Shown here piece by piece: positions 53,461-58,748 of a DNA stretch of 64,000 nt. The translations under genes and the position numbers were made by a program. The DNA lies in the NCBI GenBank assembly GCA_020832105.1, contig JAFIFH010000014.1:1-64000 (forward strand), in the 5' to 3' direction. Source of the DNA: Idiomarina sp. (GTDB lineage Bacteria; Pseudomonadota; Gammaproteobacteria; Enterobacterales; Alteromonadaceae). Every line of letters begins with the position of its first letter. Within the stretch, counting starts at the first letter, position 1. Under the pieces are notes generated by a model. It had not been told where the DNA came from. It did no database searches and worked only from the letters and a program-made list of their open reading frames with translations.

Positions 53461-54414
53461 CTAGTTACCCACTGTAACCTGCAGGGTTTGACCTTGTTCA
53501 ATCACGATATTCTGAGCGTGAACGAAGTCTAGCGCCGTTTCTTCTTCTGGATCGTCATTCACATCACAAGTCAGGCCGATGGTGTATGAACCGGCTTCAA
53601 TGTAACCAATAGTAAAGGGATACTCTGATGCACCGTCAAAGAAGACCGAGGTACTGGCATAAGGAGAACGCTCATCACTGTTACTAAACATATCCTCGGT
53701 GGCCACATCATGACCTTCAAACAGGTACACCGCAGCGACTGGCTGTTCATTGTCGCTTGGGGCAACGCTACACTCTTGTTCAACTAACAGCATTTCTGCA
53801 ACTTCGCCTTCAACATGTCCCACCGCCGAATTGTCCACTAAACGCAAACCACGCGGCTTAAGCAGATAGTGGTCAAGCCCGGGAGGCGCCACTAGTGCAC
53901 GGCGTAAATCGAACTCTAAAGTGTAGTTAAAAGACTGGTTCGCAGTCAGGGTGACTCCATCCAGACGCAGTTGGTCTGAAGGTATACGCAGCGCTTCACG
54001 GCTACCGTCGTTAAGCTCAACGTAGCTGCCCTGGCTGACAAAGTTAAGGCGCAATTGTCCGTACTGGCCTGCAGGCACTTCAGCGTTCTGGACCAATGCC
54101 TCAGCGTTAGCGCCCTGTAAAGTCAGTAAATCGACGCCTACGGTTCCGGGGATCACATTGTTAGCGCTATCCAGGCACAGGTCGTTGGCAGGCACTGCAT
54201 CGTCGCTGTCACCAACATCAAAAGTTTGTGGCGGTAACCCGTTCCCAACCAGCTCAACGCTGTCGAAACAGACTAATACTGCATTGGCCGCATCTACCGG
54301 CGCATCACTGACACCAAACGAGAACTGCGCGGTGTCAGACGTTTCGTTAGAGTCGCTATTACATGCACTTACCGCAAACGCGATCGATAGCGCTAAAAGA
54401 CTAATTTTTTTCAT
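53461..54414 (-). CDS. DUF4382 domain lipoprotein
   Basis: A 317-residue lipoprotein: the signal ends at AVSAC, Cys18. The N-terminal domain (about 30-195) follows the DUF4382 pattern: FSFGVSDAPVDAANAVLVCFDSVEL, VDLLTLQGANAEALV, and EVPAGQYGQLRLNF. A second part of about 110 residues resembles a carboxypeptidase-regulatory-like beta domain ending YTIGLTCDVNDD. The function is unknown; the family is surface-exposed or periplasmic. GAGGA precedes the ATG. Its upstream region has a diverged copy of the promoter element shared in this island. Confidence 0.8.
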   Translation of the reverse strand: MKKISLLALSIAFAVSACNSDSNETSDTAQFSFGVSDAPVDAANAVLVCFDSVELVGNGLPPQTFDVGDSDDAVPANDLCLDSANNVIPGTVGVDLLTLQGANAEALVQNAEVPAGQYGQLRLNFVSQGSYVELNDGSREALRIPSDQLRLDGVTLTANQSFNYTLEFDLRRALVAPPGLDHYLLKPRGLRLVDNSAVGHVEGEVAEMLLVEQECSVAPSDNEQPVAAVYLFEGHDVATEDMFSNSDERSPYASTSVFFDGASEYPFTIGYIEAGSYTIGLTCDVNDDPEEETALDFVHAQNIVIEQGQTLQVTVGN

Positions 54415-54450
54415 CTCGTTATCCTCAGTTTATATTCAGCTTCATTGAGC

Positions 54451-54477
54451 TAACGTTCTAACCTCTAAGTTTATTCC
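54451..54477 (-). promoter_or_regulatory. Diverged ECF-type promoter element upstream of the DUF4382 gene
   Basis: On the minus strand GGAAT (54477-54473), 17 bases, CGTTA (54455-54451). It matches the -35 and spacing of the three other elements of the island but has CGTT instead of CGTC at -10. It lies 36 bases before the DUF4382 ATG. Confidence 0.5.
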
Positions 54478-54511
54478 CTGAAACGGAAAAAATATTTTTC
54501 ATCGCAATCAA

Positions 54512-54538
54512 GGAATAATAGTTTCTGCCAAGCCGTCT
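54512..54538 (+). promoter_or_regulatory. ECF-type promoter of the tetrapeptide-repeat protein gene
   Basis: GGAAT (54512-54516), 17 bases, CGTCT (54534-54538). It ends 35 bases before the ATG and has the same architecture as the elements upstream of the sigma-factor and S8 genes. Confidence 0.68.
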
Positions 54539-54573
54539 GCTTTATGTAACTATGGCAAAATGAGGAAAATACA

Positions 54574-54996
54574 ATGTTCAACTTAAGTTCTCGACTACAG
54601 CAACTTACCGCAATCACAGCCTTTAGCTTGGTGGCTATCAGCCCGATGGCTCTTGCTGAAAACAATGCCGCTGCAGAAGCTAACCTGGGGCTTGAAACTG
54701 CTGCCTCAGCACGGCAGGTGCAGCAACTTGGGCAGAATGTAAGCGATACTGCACGACATTCAGCTCATGAATTGCGTGATGCCATGGGTGGACTGGTACG
54801 TCAACAAGTGGGTAATCATGCTGGCGCAACGGTCAATGCCGAGGTTGCTGCACAGGTCAGTGCATCGGTCGGCCAGAACGCCAGAGATTCCCTACGCCAA
54901 AATGTACGTGACAATGTTCGCGGCAATGTACGGGATAACGTACGGAATAGCCTGCGCGATGACGTGCAGCCGGGTCGAGGTCGTGGCGGTAATTAA
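54574..54996 (+). CDS. Small secreted protein with C-terminal tetrapeptide repeats
   Basis: A 140-residue protein of no recognised family. Residues 1 to about 28 are a signal peptide (ISPMALAEN). A helical, Ala/Gln-rich segment (about 35-100) follows. Residues 106-133 consist of seven four-residue units of the type N-V-R-D (SLRQ, NVRD, NVRG, NVRD, NVRN, SLRD, DVQP), and the end is GRGRGGN. The product is predicted to be exported, with a strongly Arg-rich tail. GAGGA lies 7 bases before the ATG. It precedes the barrel gene in the same direction and has the ECF-type promoter element of the island. The partner and role are unknown. Confidence 0.85.
   Translation: MFNLSSRLQQLTAITAFSLVAISPMALAENNAAAEANLGLETAASARQVQQLGQNVSDTARHSAHELRDAMGGLVRQQVGNHAGATVNAEVAAQVSASVGQNARDSLRQNVRDNVRGNVRDNVRNSLRDDVQPGRGRGGN
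54889..54972 (+). repeat. Seven imperfect 12-base in-frame repeats
   Basis: Seven tandem 12-base units encode the tetrapeptide array (first unit SLRQ, last DVQP). The central five units share AATGTACG-type starts with varied third positions, so the protein pattern is better conserved than the DNA. Confidence 0.75.
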
Positions 54997-55003
54997 ACAT
55001 CAG

Positions 55004-55034
55004 CCGGGCTGGTAACAGCTCGGTTCTTTCCTTT
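55004..55034 (+). terminator. Attenuator-like hairpin between the repeat-protein and barrel genes
   Basis: CCGGGCTG (55004-55011) pairs with CAGCTCGG (55016-55023), with one G-U pair and a GTAA loop, and is followed by TTCTTTCCTTT. The weak, interrupted T-run suggests partial termination, which would make the upstream small protein more abundant than the barrel. Confidence 0.5.
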
Positions 55035-55044
55035 GAGGTTATTG

Positions 55045-55959
55045 ATGAAGTACATTTTATCCGGTTTGTTGTTCGCCCCCGTGCTTGCACAACTCGCTTA
55101 CGCGGAAGACAGCACAGAAGACACATTTACCTGGTCCGGCCGTATATCTGCAGACACAGAACACCATTCCAACGTCAGTGTCTCTGAGATTGAAAGCACC
55201 ACCGGCGAAGCGGATAGCGCGTTTTTCTTTACTGCAGGTCTGGACTCAAGCTGGGCAATCAGCAATCGCGTGACGCTGGATGCTGGCTACAATTACAGCG
55301 ATCGGCGCTTCACAGAGTTCAGCGAGTTCGATCTGCAAATTCATCTTGGTTATGTCGATTTAAGTTATGAGATCAATCAGTATACCATCGGTGCCAACCT
55401 GTATTACGCAGACGCGGCGGTGGATCGTAGTGGCTTTCTGACCCTCAACCAACAATCGTTGTATGCGGCGAGATTTTTCGGTTCCCGTGTCTATGGGCGT
55501 GCGGCTTTCAACCAGGCGCGTAAATCTTTTCGTGAGTTCCCGGCGCGAAGTGCCAGTAACCAGGGATTGAGCGGTGATCTATTCTGGTTCTCCAGCGACC
55601 TGAACCGATTTCTGTCTCTTGGCGTGACTTACCTGGATGAAGATGCTAATAGTCGAGAGTTCAGTTATCAGTCCCTGGCCTCGCGTATACGTTTGTCACA
55701 ACGCTTTGAGATGCTCGGACGCAGCGCAAGACTTCAGCTTAGTGCACGGTGGGAAGAGCGCGACTATGAGGCTGCACATACTTTGATCTCGCAACCTCGC
55801 GAAGACACCCAGTTGGTGGCAGAGGCCAACTTTGAGCTGAATATCATGAGAGCCCTTCACCTTACCTCTGAAATTGAACGTGGTCGTTATCGTTCAAACC
55901 TGGCAATTGCAGATTACGCCGAAACGCGCGCGGGTGTCGGACTACGTCTGAATTTCTGA
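55045..55959 (+). CDS. Outer-membrane beta-barrel protein of the ECF island
   Basis: A 304-residue protein with a signal peptide (about 1-21, ending AYA). The mature part has repeated amphipathic strands (VTLDAGYNYSDRRF, IHLGYVDLSYEI, RARLQLSARWEERDYE-like segments) and ends in AGVGLRLNF with a terminal Phe, as in BAM substrates. I predict 12 or more strands. No family is recognised with certainty. ATG 55045 with GAGG 6 bases upstream is chosen over the in-frame TTG at 55033. It lies 48 bases after the repeat-protein gene and converges on the S8 gene with a 12-base gap. Confidence 0.78.
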   Translation: MKYILSGLLFAPVLAQLAYAEDSTEDTFTWSGRISADTEHHSNVSVSEIESTTGEADSAFFFTAGLDSSWAISNRVTLDAGYNYSDRRFTEFSEFDLQIHLGYVDLSYEINQYTIGANLYYADAAVDRSGFLTLNQQSLYAARFFGSRVYGRAAFNQARKSFREFPARSASNQGLSGDLFWFSSDLNRFLSLGVTYLDEDANSREFSYQSLASRIRLSQRFEMLGRSARLQLSARWEERDYEAAHTLISQPREDTQLVAEANFELNIMRALHLTSEIERGRYRSNLAIADYAETRAGVGLRLNF

Positions 55960-55971
55960 TTGAAGGCCAGG

Positions 55972-57366
55972 CTATTGCGGACGAAGCACACCATAACCGA
56001 GGACGGTATCAGGCATCGAACTGCTCGGTTCCAGAGTCAACCCGCGTAGATACACCTTAGTGTCTGCCACTGTGTTTTGCTGAAAACAACCAGCGAAGGC
56101 ACTGACCACGGGGGTTGCCACTGAGGTTCCAGAATTTATGGTAGTGTCGCCGTCGGCAAGCAACACAGGCACATTGACCCCTGGAGCAGCAAAGTCTACG
56201 TGCTCCCCCTGCCCGGCCCACGGATACACTTGCCCCTGTTGATCAACGGCGGTGACTGCAACTACCGAAGGGTACGCCGCTGGATACTGCATGGGGGCAT
56301 GTGGGCCCAGATTACCAACGGCAGCCACGACGACCACATGTCTTTGTACAGCCGCCTCGATAGCCTGTTGCAACAAGTTATTCGGCGGGCCAGCCAGGCT
56401 CATATTGATTACCTCAACCTGCTGACTTAGTAACCAGTCGATACCCGCCAACAAGTACTCTATCTTGCTCCCCTGATGACCGCCCTGTTGTTGATAAAAG
56501 GCGCCGACCTGGAACACTTTCGCGGCCGGTAGCAGTGGCCTCAGCCCCGCCTTCTCACCGATCAAAAACCCGGTAATCGCGGTGCCATGCGCTGTCGGCA
56601 GCGCGCTATAATCTTCCATCGGCGAATACTCAACTAGCCGTCCCTGCTGGCGTGCCTTTGCAAAACCTGAATGCTCACTATGTAGATGAGTGTCAATTAC
56701 GCCAACCCGTACCTGCCTATCGCACACGCTTGGTAACGGAAGCTGATAGACCTGCTTCGCAGTGGCTATGGTGTGTAATTGATAGACATGCTGGCGATCC
56801 AACGAGTCATGCAGATGATGCGGTAGTAAGCGTTCGATGCTTTGCTGATTATCCAGGCCTTCAGGTACACGGAATGTCAGTAACTCTTTACCTAACGCAC
56901 TGAGGGTGCGCGAATCGTGCAAGTACTCAAGCAAATCAGGATGATGTTGCTGCAGTTGTTGCAAGTCGCCGGCGCCTGCAAGTAATACCCATTCACGCTG
57001 AATAATGCGCACAAAGGGTTCAATTTGTATCTCCCGGTAGCGTAATACGCCGGAACTGTCTGTAATATCAAGGATCTCAGGCAATCGCGCAGTCGCTGGT
57101 AACCCAGCGCCACGCACACCGCGTTGCATGGCCTCGGCAACATTGGCCTGCATCCGCTCTTCCGCACGTTGTGCCGCTTGAGGCAGCTGGCGTTCTATCC
57201 GTTCTAATTGGCGTAGCGCTTGTTCTGCCCTGCGTTCCATCGCTTGCTCCACTGGAATAGGTGGAACCTGAGGTCGGTCCGGGATTCGCTGTTGCGCGTC
57301 CACCGCCGGAATCAAAAGCGCACTGCCGAGTAAGCCAAATAAACCAGTGCGCTGAAGCTTGTTCAT
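55972..57366 (-). CDS. Secreted S8 serine peptidase (subtilase)
   Basis: A 464-residue exported protease. The signal peptide is residues about 1-24. A charged coiled-coil-like stretch (about 37-82: ERRAEQALRQLERIERQL) and a pro/accessory domain follow. The subtilisin catalytic domain holds Asp225 (VGVIDTHLH), His260 (TAHGTAITG), the oxyanion Asn352 (GNLGPHAP) and Ser415 (SGTSVATP), so the triad is complete. AAGG with a 7-base spacer precedes the ATG. It is divergent from the ECF sigma gene, and its upstream region carries the same promoter element. It may process cell-surface proteins of the island. Confidence 0.92.
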   Translation of the reverse strand: MNKLQRTGLFGLLGSALLIPAVDAQQRIPDRPQVPPIPVEQAMERRAEQALRQLERIERQLPQAAQRAEERMQANVAEAMQRGVRGAGLPATARLPEILDITDSSGVLRYREIQIEPFVRIIQREWVLLAGAGDLQQLQQHHPDLLEYLHDSRTLSALGKELLTFRVPEGLDNQQSIERLLPHHLHDSLDRQHVYQLHTIATAKQVYQLPLPSVCDRQVRVGVIDTHLHSEHSGFAKARQQGRLVEYSPMEDYSALPTAHGTAITGFLIGEKAGLRPLLPAAKVFQVGAFYQQQGGHQGSKIEYLLAGIDWLLSQQVEVINMSLAGPPNNLLQQAIEAAVQRHVVVVAAVGNLGPHAPMQYPAAYPSVVAVTAVDQQGQVYPWAGQGEHVDFAAPGVNVPVLLADGDTTINSGTSVATPVVSAFAGCFQQNTVADTKVYLRGLTLEPSSSMPDTVLGYGVLRPQ

Positions 57367-57410
57367 AGATAGACCTTAAATAGTGAGTAACATCGTGTAT
57401 ATGTAATAAT

Positions 57411-57435
57411 GACGATCCAGCAAGAATAAAATTCC
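57411..57435 (-). promoter_or_regulatory. ECF-type promoter of the S8 peptidase gene (-35/-10 boxes)
   Basis: Minus strand GGAAT (57435-57431), 16 bases, CGTC (57414-57411) with A next. It lies 44 bases before the S8 ATG. It is almost identical in sequence and spacing to the sigma-gene element on the opposite strand. Confidence 0.7.
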
Positions 57436-57445
57436 ACCTGTGAAC

Positions 57446-57472
57446 GGAATAAGTTAACACACTTAACCGTCA
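57446..57472 (+). promoter_or_regulatory. ECF-type promoter of the sigma/anti-sigma operon
   Basis: GGAAT (57446-57450), 17 bases, CGTCA (57468-57472), about 40 bases before the sigma start. It is consistent with autoregulation. The spacer contains GTTAA/TTAAC, a small inverted repeat. Confidence 0.72.
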
Positions 57473-57512
57473 ACTAAGTAACGTCAAAGCTGTATTGCAA
57501 GAGAGGCATGCA

Positions 57513-58031
57513 TTGAGTGTGAACCAAGCTGAACTAATGGCTATTTTGCCTGCATTAAGACGCTTTGCGTTTTCCCTTACGCATTCAGTGCCGGACACGG
57601 ACGATCTGGTGCAGAACACGATTGAACGGATTCTGACGAAGGCCTCTCCCGAACAGGTGGACGTGACCAAGTGGGCGTTCCGCATATGCCGTAATTTGTG
57701 GATTGATGAGTACAGGGCGCAGAAAGTCAGAGCAGCAGTGGCGGACAACCCTGATTTTGAGCAGCCAACCAGCGTTGAAGGTGAGCGGCAGATCATGCAG
57801 GAAATAAATCTGACATCTGTCGGTCAAGCCATGCAGCAACTACCCGCAGAGCAATTAACGGTGTTAAGCATGATTGCGGTGCAGGGTTGCAGCTACCGGG
57901 AAACCGCAGAAGCTTTAGATATTCCGGTAGGGACCGTCATGAGTCGCCTGTCCAGAGCCAGGATCAGCCTGAACAGATTGATCTCCCCAGAACCCGCAGA
58001 CGAAGGCGCGTCTTGTCGTGAGGTGCACTAA
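57513..58031 (+). CDS. ECF-family RNA polymerase sigma factor
   Basis: A 172-residue sigma factor with sigma region 2 (about 10-60: LRRFAFSLTHSVPDTDDLVQNT, the ECF core-binding helix) and region 4 (about 110-155: LPAEQLTVLSMIAVQGCSYRETAEALDIP with a helix-turn-helix). No sigma-1 or sigma-3 is present, so it is of ECF type. TTG 57513 has GAGAGG six bases upstream; GTG 57519 or TTG 57495 are alternatives. It runs directly into the anti-sigma gene (TAA then ATG, no gap). The specific ECF group is not recognised. Confidence 0.9.
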   Translation: MSVNQAELMAILPALRRFAFSLTHSVPDTDDLVQNTIERILTKASPEQVDVTKWAFRICRNLWIDEYRAQKVRAAVADNPDFEQPTSVEGERQIMQEINLTSVGQAMQQLPAEQLTVLSMIAVQGCSYRETAEALDIPVGTVMSRLSRARISLNRLISPEPADEGASCREVH

Positions 58032-58748
58032 ATGAAACATCTATCGGACGATACTTTATCCGCGTTCCTCGATCATGAGCTACCTGCTCATGAGATGGAC
58101 GCGGTGCGTGATGCGCTGGTGCAAGACCCAGTGCTAAGCGACCGCCTTGCCCAGCTTACGCTTGTGGATGAACAGGTGAAACAATACGCAGCAACAATTG
58201 ATAAGCACCCAGTGCCCGAGGCAACTTTAAAGTTACTCAGTACATATCAGGCTAACTCCCACCAGCGTTGGTGGCAAAACGCTAGCCAACGGGTATTTGC
58301 CGGGTCAGGCCAACGTTTTGCGCTGGCTGCCAGCCTGTGTTTAGTATTTGGCAGTGTGGCAGGATACCTGATGGCACCAACACACCAGACAATTGACTCA
58401 TGGACCCTTGTCACGGAGCAATTAGGCTCTGCACCAAGCGGCCAGACTATTGAGCTTGCCGATGGTCACCGCTTTACCGTTCAATTTAGCTTCCATGCTA
58501 CAGCTGGTGAGTTATGCCGGGTATATCAACTGGAAAGCGCTCAATCTATGGAGAGTATCGCTTGCTGGCAGGCACAGGCGGGCTGGCAGAATATTCTCAC
58601 CACCTACCCGGCGAGCGCCGCTGCAGAGGAGTATTCACTGGCTTCTGGCTCGTTACTCATGCAGCAACAGGTAGCGGCCTTACAAGCGACGCCCCCGCTG
58701 GACCTTGCACAAGAAGGTGCAGCATTGCAGGAACTACAGCTTAAGTAA
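58032..58748 (+). CDS. Membrane anti-sigma factor
   Basis: A 238-residue protein. The cytoplasmic N-terminal part (1 to about 94) has an anti-sigma-like helix pattern (SDDTLSAFLDHELPAHEMD). One transmembrane segment (about 95-114: FALAASLCLVFGSVAGYLM) and a 124-residue C-terminal domain follow, which is predicted to be periplasmic. No zinc HxxxCxxC motif is seen, so it is of the non-zinc type. Its ATG follows the sigma stop directly, with GAGG before it. The periplasmic domain is the likely signal input. Confidence 0.88.
   Translation: MKHLSDDTLSAFLDHELPAHEMDAVRDALVQDPVLSDRLAQLTLVDEQVKQYAATIDKHPVPEATLKLLSTYQANSHQRWWQNASQRVFAGSGQRFALAASLCLVFGSVAGYLMAPTHQTIDSWTLVTEQLGSAPSGQTIELADGHRFTVQFSFHATAGELCRVYQLESAQSMESIACWQAQAGWQNILTTYPASAAAEEYSLASGSLLMQQQVAALQATPPLDLAQEGAALQELQLK

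Follow-up and report, generated by a model that had tools for sequence, protein, structure and literature searches.

A predicted extracytoplasmic function sigma factor regulon of a subtilase, a small outer-membrane barrel and a secreted tetrad-repeat protein in Idiomarina and related bacteria

Introduction

Several described systems share single features with the gene set reported here. According to the accessible part of its description (PMC12153292), the sigma factor SigAb of Acinetobacter reads promoters with the -35 element GTCAAC and the -10 element CGTT. DUF560 systems either contain TPR domains or have TPR proteins associated with them, as stated in the available sections of PMC8406197. 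In the available text of PMC8999054, subtilases are proposed to act on ECF54, in an arrangement different from the present one. Here we analyze a gene cluster of Idiomarina sp. (GenBank assembly GCA_020832105.1, contig JAFIFH010000014.1). The window, i.e. the whole stretch of DNA analyzed, comprises positions 1 to 64,000 of this contig. Between positions 53,461 and 58,748 it encodes an extracytoplasmic function (ECF) sigma factor, an anti-sigma factor, an S8 (subtilisin-type) peptidase, a repeat protein, an outer-membrane barrel and a DUF4382 protein. A sequence-only reading of the window had assigned these genes to one regulon with a shared promoter element.

Results

Promoter elements of the cluster

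The element GGAAT-N16/17-CGT(C/T) was found at all four places named by the sequence-only reading, with three of its end coordinates 1 base too far. The sigma/anti-sigma operon is preceded by GGAAT-N17-CGTC (57446-57471, plus strand; matrix score 16.4), and its back-to-back neighbor is the S8 element, GGAAT-N16-CGTC (57411-57435, minus strand; score 17.8). Upstream of the repeat-protein gene lies GGAAT-N17-CGTC (54512-54537, plus strand; score 17.2), and the lipoprotein gene is preceded by GGAAT-N17-CGTT (54452-54477, minus strand; score 23.4). The claimed spacing of 16 or 17 bases was thus recovered. The CGT box is separated from the start codon by 41 bases for sigma (TTG at 57513), 44 for S8, 36 for the repeat protein and 37 for the lipoprotein, in agreement with the claimed 35-45 bases. 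Five motif matches were observed in the window compared with 1.78 expected, and five or more occurred in 2 of 100 shuffles.

Upstream regions of related loci were scored with a jackknifed weight matrix, which was trained without the scored locus and allowed N16 and N17 spacers; 1620 stretches served as controls. The 99th control percentile was exceeded by 27 of 27 sigma, 25 of 27 S8 and 24 of 25 repeat-gene upstream regions, and the highest control by 22, 13 and 20 of them, respectively. The matrix consensus is GGAATAAA and CGT(T/C)A with a spacer of 16 or 17 bases. In 23 of 25 loci the repeat-gene promoter lies 35-38 bases from the start. The -35 boxes of S8 and sigma are separated by 10 bases in this genome and by 8-10 in 21 of 25 measurable loci; the gap is 18 bases in three loci and 43 in one.

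The leader between the repeat-gene promoter and the start codon has a near-constant length, and some relatives (L062, L063, L105 and others; our labels start with L for loci, G for genomes and C for contigs) carry a TGTC...GACA inverted repeat in it. A conserved TGTC-N-GACA hairpin was rejected as a feature of the leader: it occurs in several relatives and is absent from this genome and others. Separately, a different ECF sigma factor in G047 (L069:7428-9090) has divergent GGAATAAA...CGT(C/T) elements in common with a gene for a 342-residue protein, which is followed by a cytochrome-b561-like gene (labeled by eye).

Conservation of the gene set

The barrel, S8 peptidase, sigma factor and anti-sigma factor are kept together in seven genomes of the same genus and in G018. 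A barrel profile searched against 394 genomes of the order gave 21 strong matches (E ≤ 1e-50; the next at 3e-11). Two of these were this genome and G018, and the regions of the other 19 were fetched. All four genes lie close together in 18 of the 19 regions, 17 of them with the same arrangement and one, G309 (L115), with the repeat gene and barrel inverted. In G245, the set is divided between two contigs, one with the repeat gene and barrel and the other with sigma, anti-sigma and S8. Promoter sites are present in both separated operons, some with the first G changed, the site of the unlinked repeat gene among those. A sigma profile at E ≤ 1e-35 identified the same 21 of 394 genomes as the barrel profile; because both profiles were built from these loci and the thresholds were chosen while the lists were being inspected, this exact overlap was somewhat favored.

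Eight of the 17 genomes of the genus carry sigma, and S8 is found in precisely these eight. A class-wide barrel search returned 2 genomes outside the order among 369 (G435 and G555); G435 had no sigma match at E ≤ 1e-15. A single-protein scan of genome contigs found one distant relative only. Gene order and promoter motif, which the sequence-only reading had proposed to compare in related genomes, are both conserved. The window neighbors tested (phospholipase-D-like, CoA-transferase-like and others) could not be matched in the roughly 14-15 kb examined in each relative and were not counted in the gene set.

Regulation of the DUF4382 lipoprotein gene in trans

The DUF4382 gene (53461-54414, minus strand; Pfam DUF4382, E 1.4e-23) encodes a probable lipoprotein and appears to be an accessory member of the regulon. 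The lipoprotein signal model LPAM_1 scored 18.7 bits on its product, just under the cut-off of 20. Of the 17 genomes of the genus, 12 have the gene, and in five of the eight sigma-positive ones it lies on another contig than the cluster. Its promoter site was found in 7 of 8 sigma-positive genomes (4 of 5 when unlinked; G002 lacks it) versus none of 4 sigma-negative genomes (Fisher test, 0.01; unlinked only, 0.04; the genomes are related and not independent).

For the order, comparison loci were taken from 31 genomes without a sigma match at the thresholds used and from this genome's own paralogue; they included the best-matching loci and others hand-picked to match the sigma-positive family. 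L219 (a sigma-negative genome) and L249 (the sigma-positive G319) were left out because they had no recognizable lipoprotein start. A site above the 99.9th control percentile was found in 9 of 19 sigma-positive genomes versus 0 of these 32 loci (Fisher test, 3e-5, with the same dependence among genomes), and in six of the nine the lipoprotein gene lies away from the cluster. At the 99th percentile the counts were 10 of 19, the tenth being G018 with a doubtful start, versus 1 of 32 (G004). Outside the genus, only G225 and G191, both of one other family, have a clear site, which marks the lipoprotein as a lineage-specific member of the regulon. The original description of the system as self-contained holds in this genome, although the lipoprotein is a clear target in some lineages only.

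Evidence for and against a single regulon

The results that weigh against one regulon concern the specificity of the motif and its gaps. In the whole genome, 62 motif matches were found compared with 98 for the reversed control pattern. The bare motif is thus not enriched, and the weight of the element rests on its position. Strict-motif matches outside the cluster and lipoprotein genes numbered 7 in 8 sigma-positive versus 5 in 9 sigma-negative genomes (p 0.31); a wider regulon was rejected, as such matches were not commoner in sigma-positive genomes. Scores below the 99th percentile were obtained for the S8 promoters of G018 (6.8) and G374 (9.6) and for the repeat-gene promoter of G003 (10.7), and a strong lipoprotein site is lacking in 10 of 19 sigma-positive genomes. 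The search for the repeat gene, which may overlook a diverged copy, recognized none in G011, where the strict pattern also gave no site in the direction of the barrel gene.

The surroundings of all 62 genomic sites were inspected. Nine lie outside open reading frames of at least 70 residues. In five of these a start codon follows on the same strand at a distance of 5-200 bases, namely in the four cluster sites and in a site before another ECF sigma gene. Two further sites lie within a reading frame yet 110-143 bases ahead of another start (L193, L196). The genome-wide search proposed with the sequence-only reading gave a split answer, negative for the bare motif and positive for promoter placement. 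Additional targets may have escaped it, as the completeness of the assembly is 92.8%.

The degenerate motif and its 62 genomic matches, fewer than for the reversed control, would fit four elements that arose by chance or that are ordinary promoters read by a different sigma factor. This explanation is extremely improbable, as the elements are conserved in 27 loci and the lipoprotein site depends on whether the genome has sigma; a chance motif was ruled out by promoter position and conservation across loci. Shared regulation is instead indicated by the conserved promoters and gene order, the matching genome sets of sigma and barrel, the lipoprotein sites in trans and the split cluster of G245. 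These comparisons bear out the single-regulon claim well, and we are close to certain that the sigma, S8, repeat-protein/barrel and lipoprotein promoters form one predicted regulon.

The fifth of these promoter-placed sites, the sole exact copy of this kind found outside the cluster in this genome (L022; G000 contig C26, 139042-139066, minus strand), suggests that its ECF sigma factor and the one of the cluster may recognize similar promoters. In L199 (G012 contig C6, minus strand, position 1321), a strict motif about 45 bases before a 297-residue, exported-looking reading frame marks a possible extra target in that genome.

Sigma factor and anti-sigma factor

The sigma gene (57513-58031, plus strand, TTG start) encodes a protein that consists of sigma2 and sigma4 domains only (Pfam Sigma70_r2 and r4_2; TIGR02937, 81 bits). 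Its best NCBIfam equivalog, PRK12511, scored below the cut-off. The anti-sigma gene (58032-58748, plus strand) stands next to sigma in 27 core loci. The predicted model of its product has a helical N-terminal domain, a helix at residues 96-114 that was taken as a membrane helix, and a periplasmic alpha/beta domain with two Cys residues that are invariant in 27 relatives. Structure comparison of the periplasmic domain gave no clear fold match (best Z 4.7), which is not proof of a new fold. An NCBIfam anti-sigma match was obtained for 11 of 27 relatives at E ≤ 0.01, this genome's protein being without one, and RseA_N matched 3 of 27 weakly.

In many relatives a small lipoprotein-like protein is encoded directly after the anti-sigma factor, e.g. 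at L117:10071-10607, with a shared start C-x-YR-A...GYGYxE. By eye and pattern, similar genes were seen in L062, L063, L065, L102, L105-L107, L115, L116, L118-L120 and L213; none follows the anti-sigma gene in this window.

Repeat protein

The gene at 54574-54996 (plus strand) encodes a predicted secreted protein of 140 residues with a hydrophobic residue or Ala at every fourth place in 17 tetrads (residues 67-131). No Pfam or NCBIfam family was found at E ≤ 0.01. A sequence search of the PDB gave nothing below E 0.08, and helix and beta propensities are equal, so the repeat may form either a helix or a beta-solenoid.

The gene adjoining the barrel encodes a secreted Ala/Ser/Thr-rich protein in 25 of 27 core loci, including the inverted G309, and in the unlinked G245. 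Outside the genus, identity to this genome's copy is 13-26%. For the period-4 test G309 was left out and G245 included, the reverse of the promoter matrix test; neither G018, where the gene is replaced, nor G011, where none was seen, contributed a repeat protein. A 40-residue window with period-4 hydrophobicity, usually near the C terminus, was present in 24 of 25 proteins (contrast at least 0.73; 14 perfect). The period-4 contrast exceeded that of all 100 same-composition shuffles in 23 of 25, the exceptions being L067 (0.47, where the shuffles reached 0.60) and L105 (0.80, where they reached 0.83). The L120 protein scored higher with period 7. The protein had first been called Arg-rich and secreted. 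Arg accounts for 6-13% of residues in this genus and 0-2% elsewhere, and the lasting feature is the period-4 hydrophobic repeat. The repeat protein is, on these sequence features, a member of an unnamed family of apparently secreted, low-complexity proteins with Val, Ile or Leu at every fourth residue near the C terminus.

S8 peptidase

The S8 gene (55972-57366, minus strand; Pfam E 8.8e-29) encodes a secreted subtilisin-type peptidase with an Asp/His/Ser triad; D225, H260, N352 and S415 are invariant in 9 aligned sequences. In G018, a gene for an 849-residue putative lipoprotein stands behind the promoter in place of the repeat gene, and the N-terminal part of the S8 peptidase (L068:5413-7317) contains a long stretch of a perfect acidic repeat, (DDVE)n; the other 26 S8 proteins score at most 0.60. 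A tetrad repeat within S8 where the repeat gene is replaced hints at contact between the repeat protein and the peptidase.

These features also bear on a second role for the subtilase, as a signaling protease that would cut the periplasmic domain of the anti-sigma factor in a positive feedback tuned by the repeat protein. The closely spaced divergent promoters, the tetrad repeat inside the G018 peptidase and the constant company of S8 and sigma (8 genomes of the genus, G018 and 19 further fetched genomes) are consistent with it. Regulated targets often include a protease for other reasons, however, and we judge this role rather improbable.

Outer-membrane barrel

The barrel gene (55045-55959, plus strand) encodes a SlipAM-like protein (Pfam SlipAM, 30.3 bits versus a cut-off of 22). 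The predicted model has 14 strands with a mean predicted local distance difference test score of 92; the first strand begins at residue 28, and there is no N-terminal domain. Among the 27 barrels, 12 matched PF04575 SlipAM, the family of the DUF560 secretion barrels, at E ≤ 0.01.

Other results on the barrel count against a role in protein export. The nearest solved folds, CymA (Z 22.3; 3.6 Å over 268 residues) and OmpG (Z 20.6; 3.9 Å over 258), are channels and not translocators. The porin-type family BBP2_2 matched 18 of 27 barrels versus 12 for SlipAM, and the polysaccharide-related NCBIfam family EpsL matched 22 of 27 (best E 5.3e-12). The predicted model also has no periplasmic domain that could recruit cargo.

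The EpsL matches would fit a barrel that exports polysaccharide, as EpsL- and PgaA-type proteins may, with the repeat protein and lipoprotein modifying it. However, the barrel of this window scored 36 bits against EpsL, where the cut-off is 275, and none of the six window genes was a polysaccharide gene by family search, which leaves this explanation very unlikely.

The channel folds and porin-type matches would agree with envelope quality control, in which sigma would answer damage, the subtilase degrade misfolded proteins, the barrel serve as a channel and the repeat protein act as periplasmic buffer or sensor. Envelope stress is a common trigger of ECF/anti-sigma pairs that have a periplasmic domain, which counts in favor of this explanation. 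On the other hand, the only further promoter-placed exact site in the genome precedes another ECF gene, and the patchy spread, 21 of 394 genomes of the order, is unlike that of a housekeeping stress response. We consider envelope quality control unlikely, though not to be dismissed.

Discussion

Export and processing of a surface protein is our leading idea on account of the SlipAM match, the constant pair of repeat protein and barrel, and the protease. In the proposed mechanism, sigma and its membrane anti-sigma factor would control their own operon, the divergent secreted subtilase and the repeat-protein/barrel operon, with the DUF4382 lipoprotein joining in some lineages. The anti-sigma factor would hold sigma until its periplasmic domain senses a signal, and the freed sigma would then read GGAATAA-N14/15-CGT(C/T)A. 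Less certainly, the repeat protein could enter the periplasm by Sec and pass across the outer membrane via the barrel, and the subtilase could trim or release it, yielding a surface or matrix protein.

On balance, we favor a putatively autoregulated ECF sigma/anti-sigma pair that would serve specifically to make, export and process a tetrad-repeat surface protein. The export role of barrel and repeat protein taken by itself is put forward tentatively, at somewhat less than even chances. More doubtful still, if conceivable, is a new class of surface export or assembly system with a minimal 14-stranded barrel, a subtilase, a (V-x-x-x)n solenoid or fiber and on-demand ECF sigma control. The sequence-only reading had proposed an envelope response; the conserved content of secreted repeat protein, barrel and subtilase suggests surface-protein export or assembly at least as much. 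Taken together, the data suggest a cell-surface system, apparently with its own dedicated switch, kept by related bacteria and previously undescribed.

A sigma factor that co-occurs with one barrel in the sampled genomes gives good access both to an unnamed family of secreted repeat proteins and to the way in which small SlipAM-like barrels that lack periplasmic domains may choose cargo. With the promoters, the targets and naturally sigma-minus relatives defined, one deletion each would suffice to test the regulon and the export idea. No account of this gene set was found in the open-licence papers searched, and the accessible part of PMC8103513 contains nothing on it.

Among described regulators, SigAb resembles the present sigma factor in its -10 CGTT and spacer of 16-17 bases, and in its autoregulated operon and few direct targets, both of which are predicted here from sequence; it differs in its targets and in its -35 element, GTCAAC compared with GGAATAA (available part of PMC12153292). 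With RpoE/RseA the system shares an ECF sigma factor with a membrane anti-sigma factor and a -35 element beginning with GGAA. The consensus GGAATAAA / CGT(T/C)A, however, is not an RpoE-type promoter (GGAACTT / TCAAA).

The type XI (Slam) systems, as far as covered by the accessible text of PMC8406197, are similar in the 14-stranded PF04575 barrel, here above the Pfam cut-off, and in the adjacent gene for a secreted partner. The present set differs in the lack of an N-terminal barrel domain, the low-complexity tetrad-repeat partner and its own ECF sigma factor. An N-terminal periplasmic TPR domain was not found in the predicted barrel model; a separate TPR partner was not looked for. Fap of Pseudomonas likewise combines a dedicated outer-membrane barrel, an exported protease and a repeat-rich exported protein in one set (available part of PMC5557850). 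Its FapF barrel is a 12-stranded trimer with an N-terminal coiled coil and its protease, FapD, is of the C39 type, whereas the barrel model here has 14 strands and no N-terminal domain, the protease of the set is S8, and control is by an ECF sigma factor. As a tested feature of each, Fap and type XI, is lacking here, the set was filed under neither, and both serve as working analogies.

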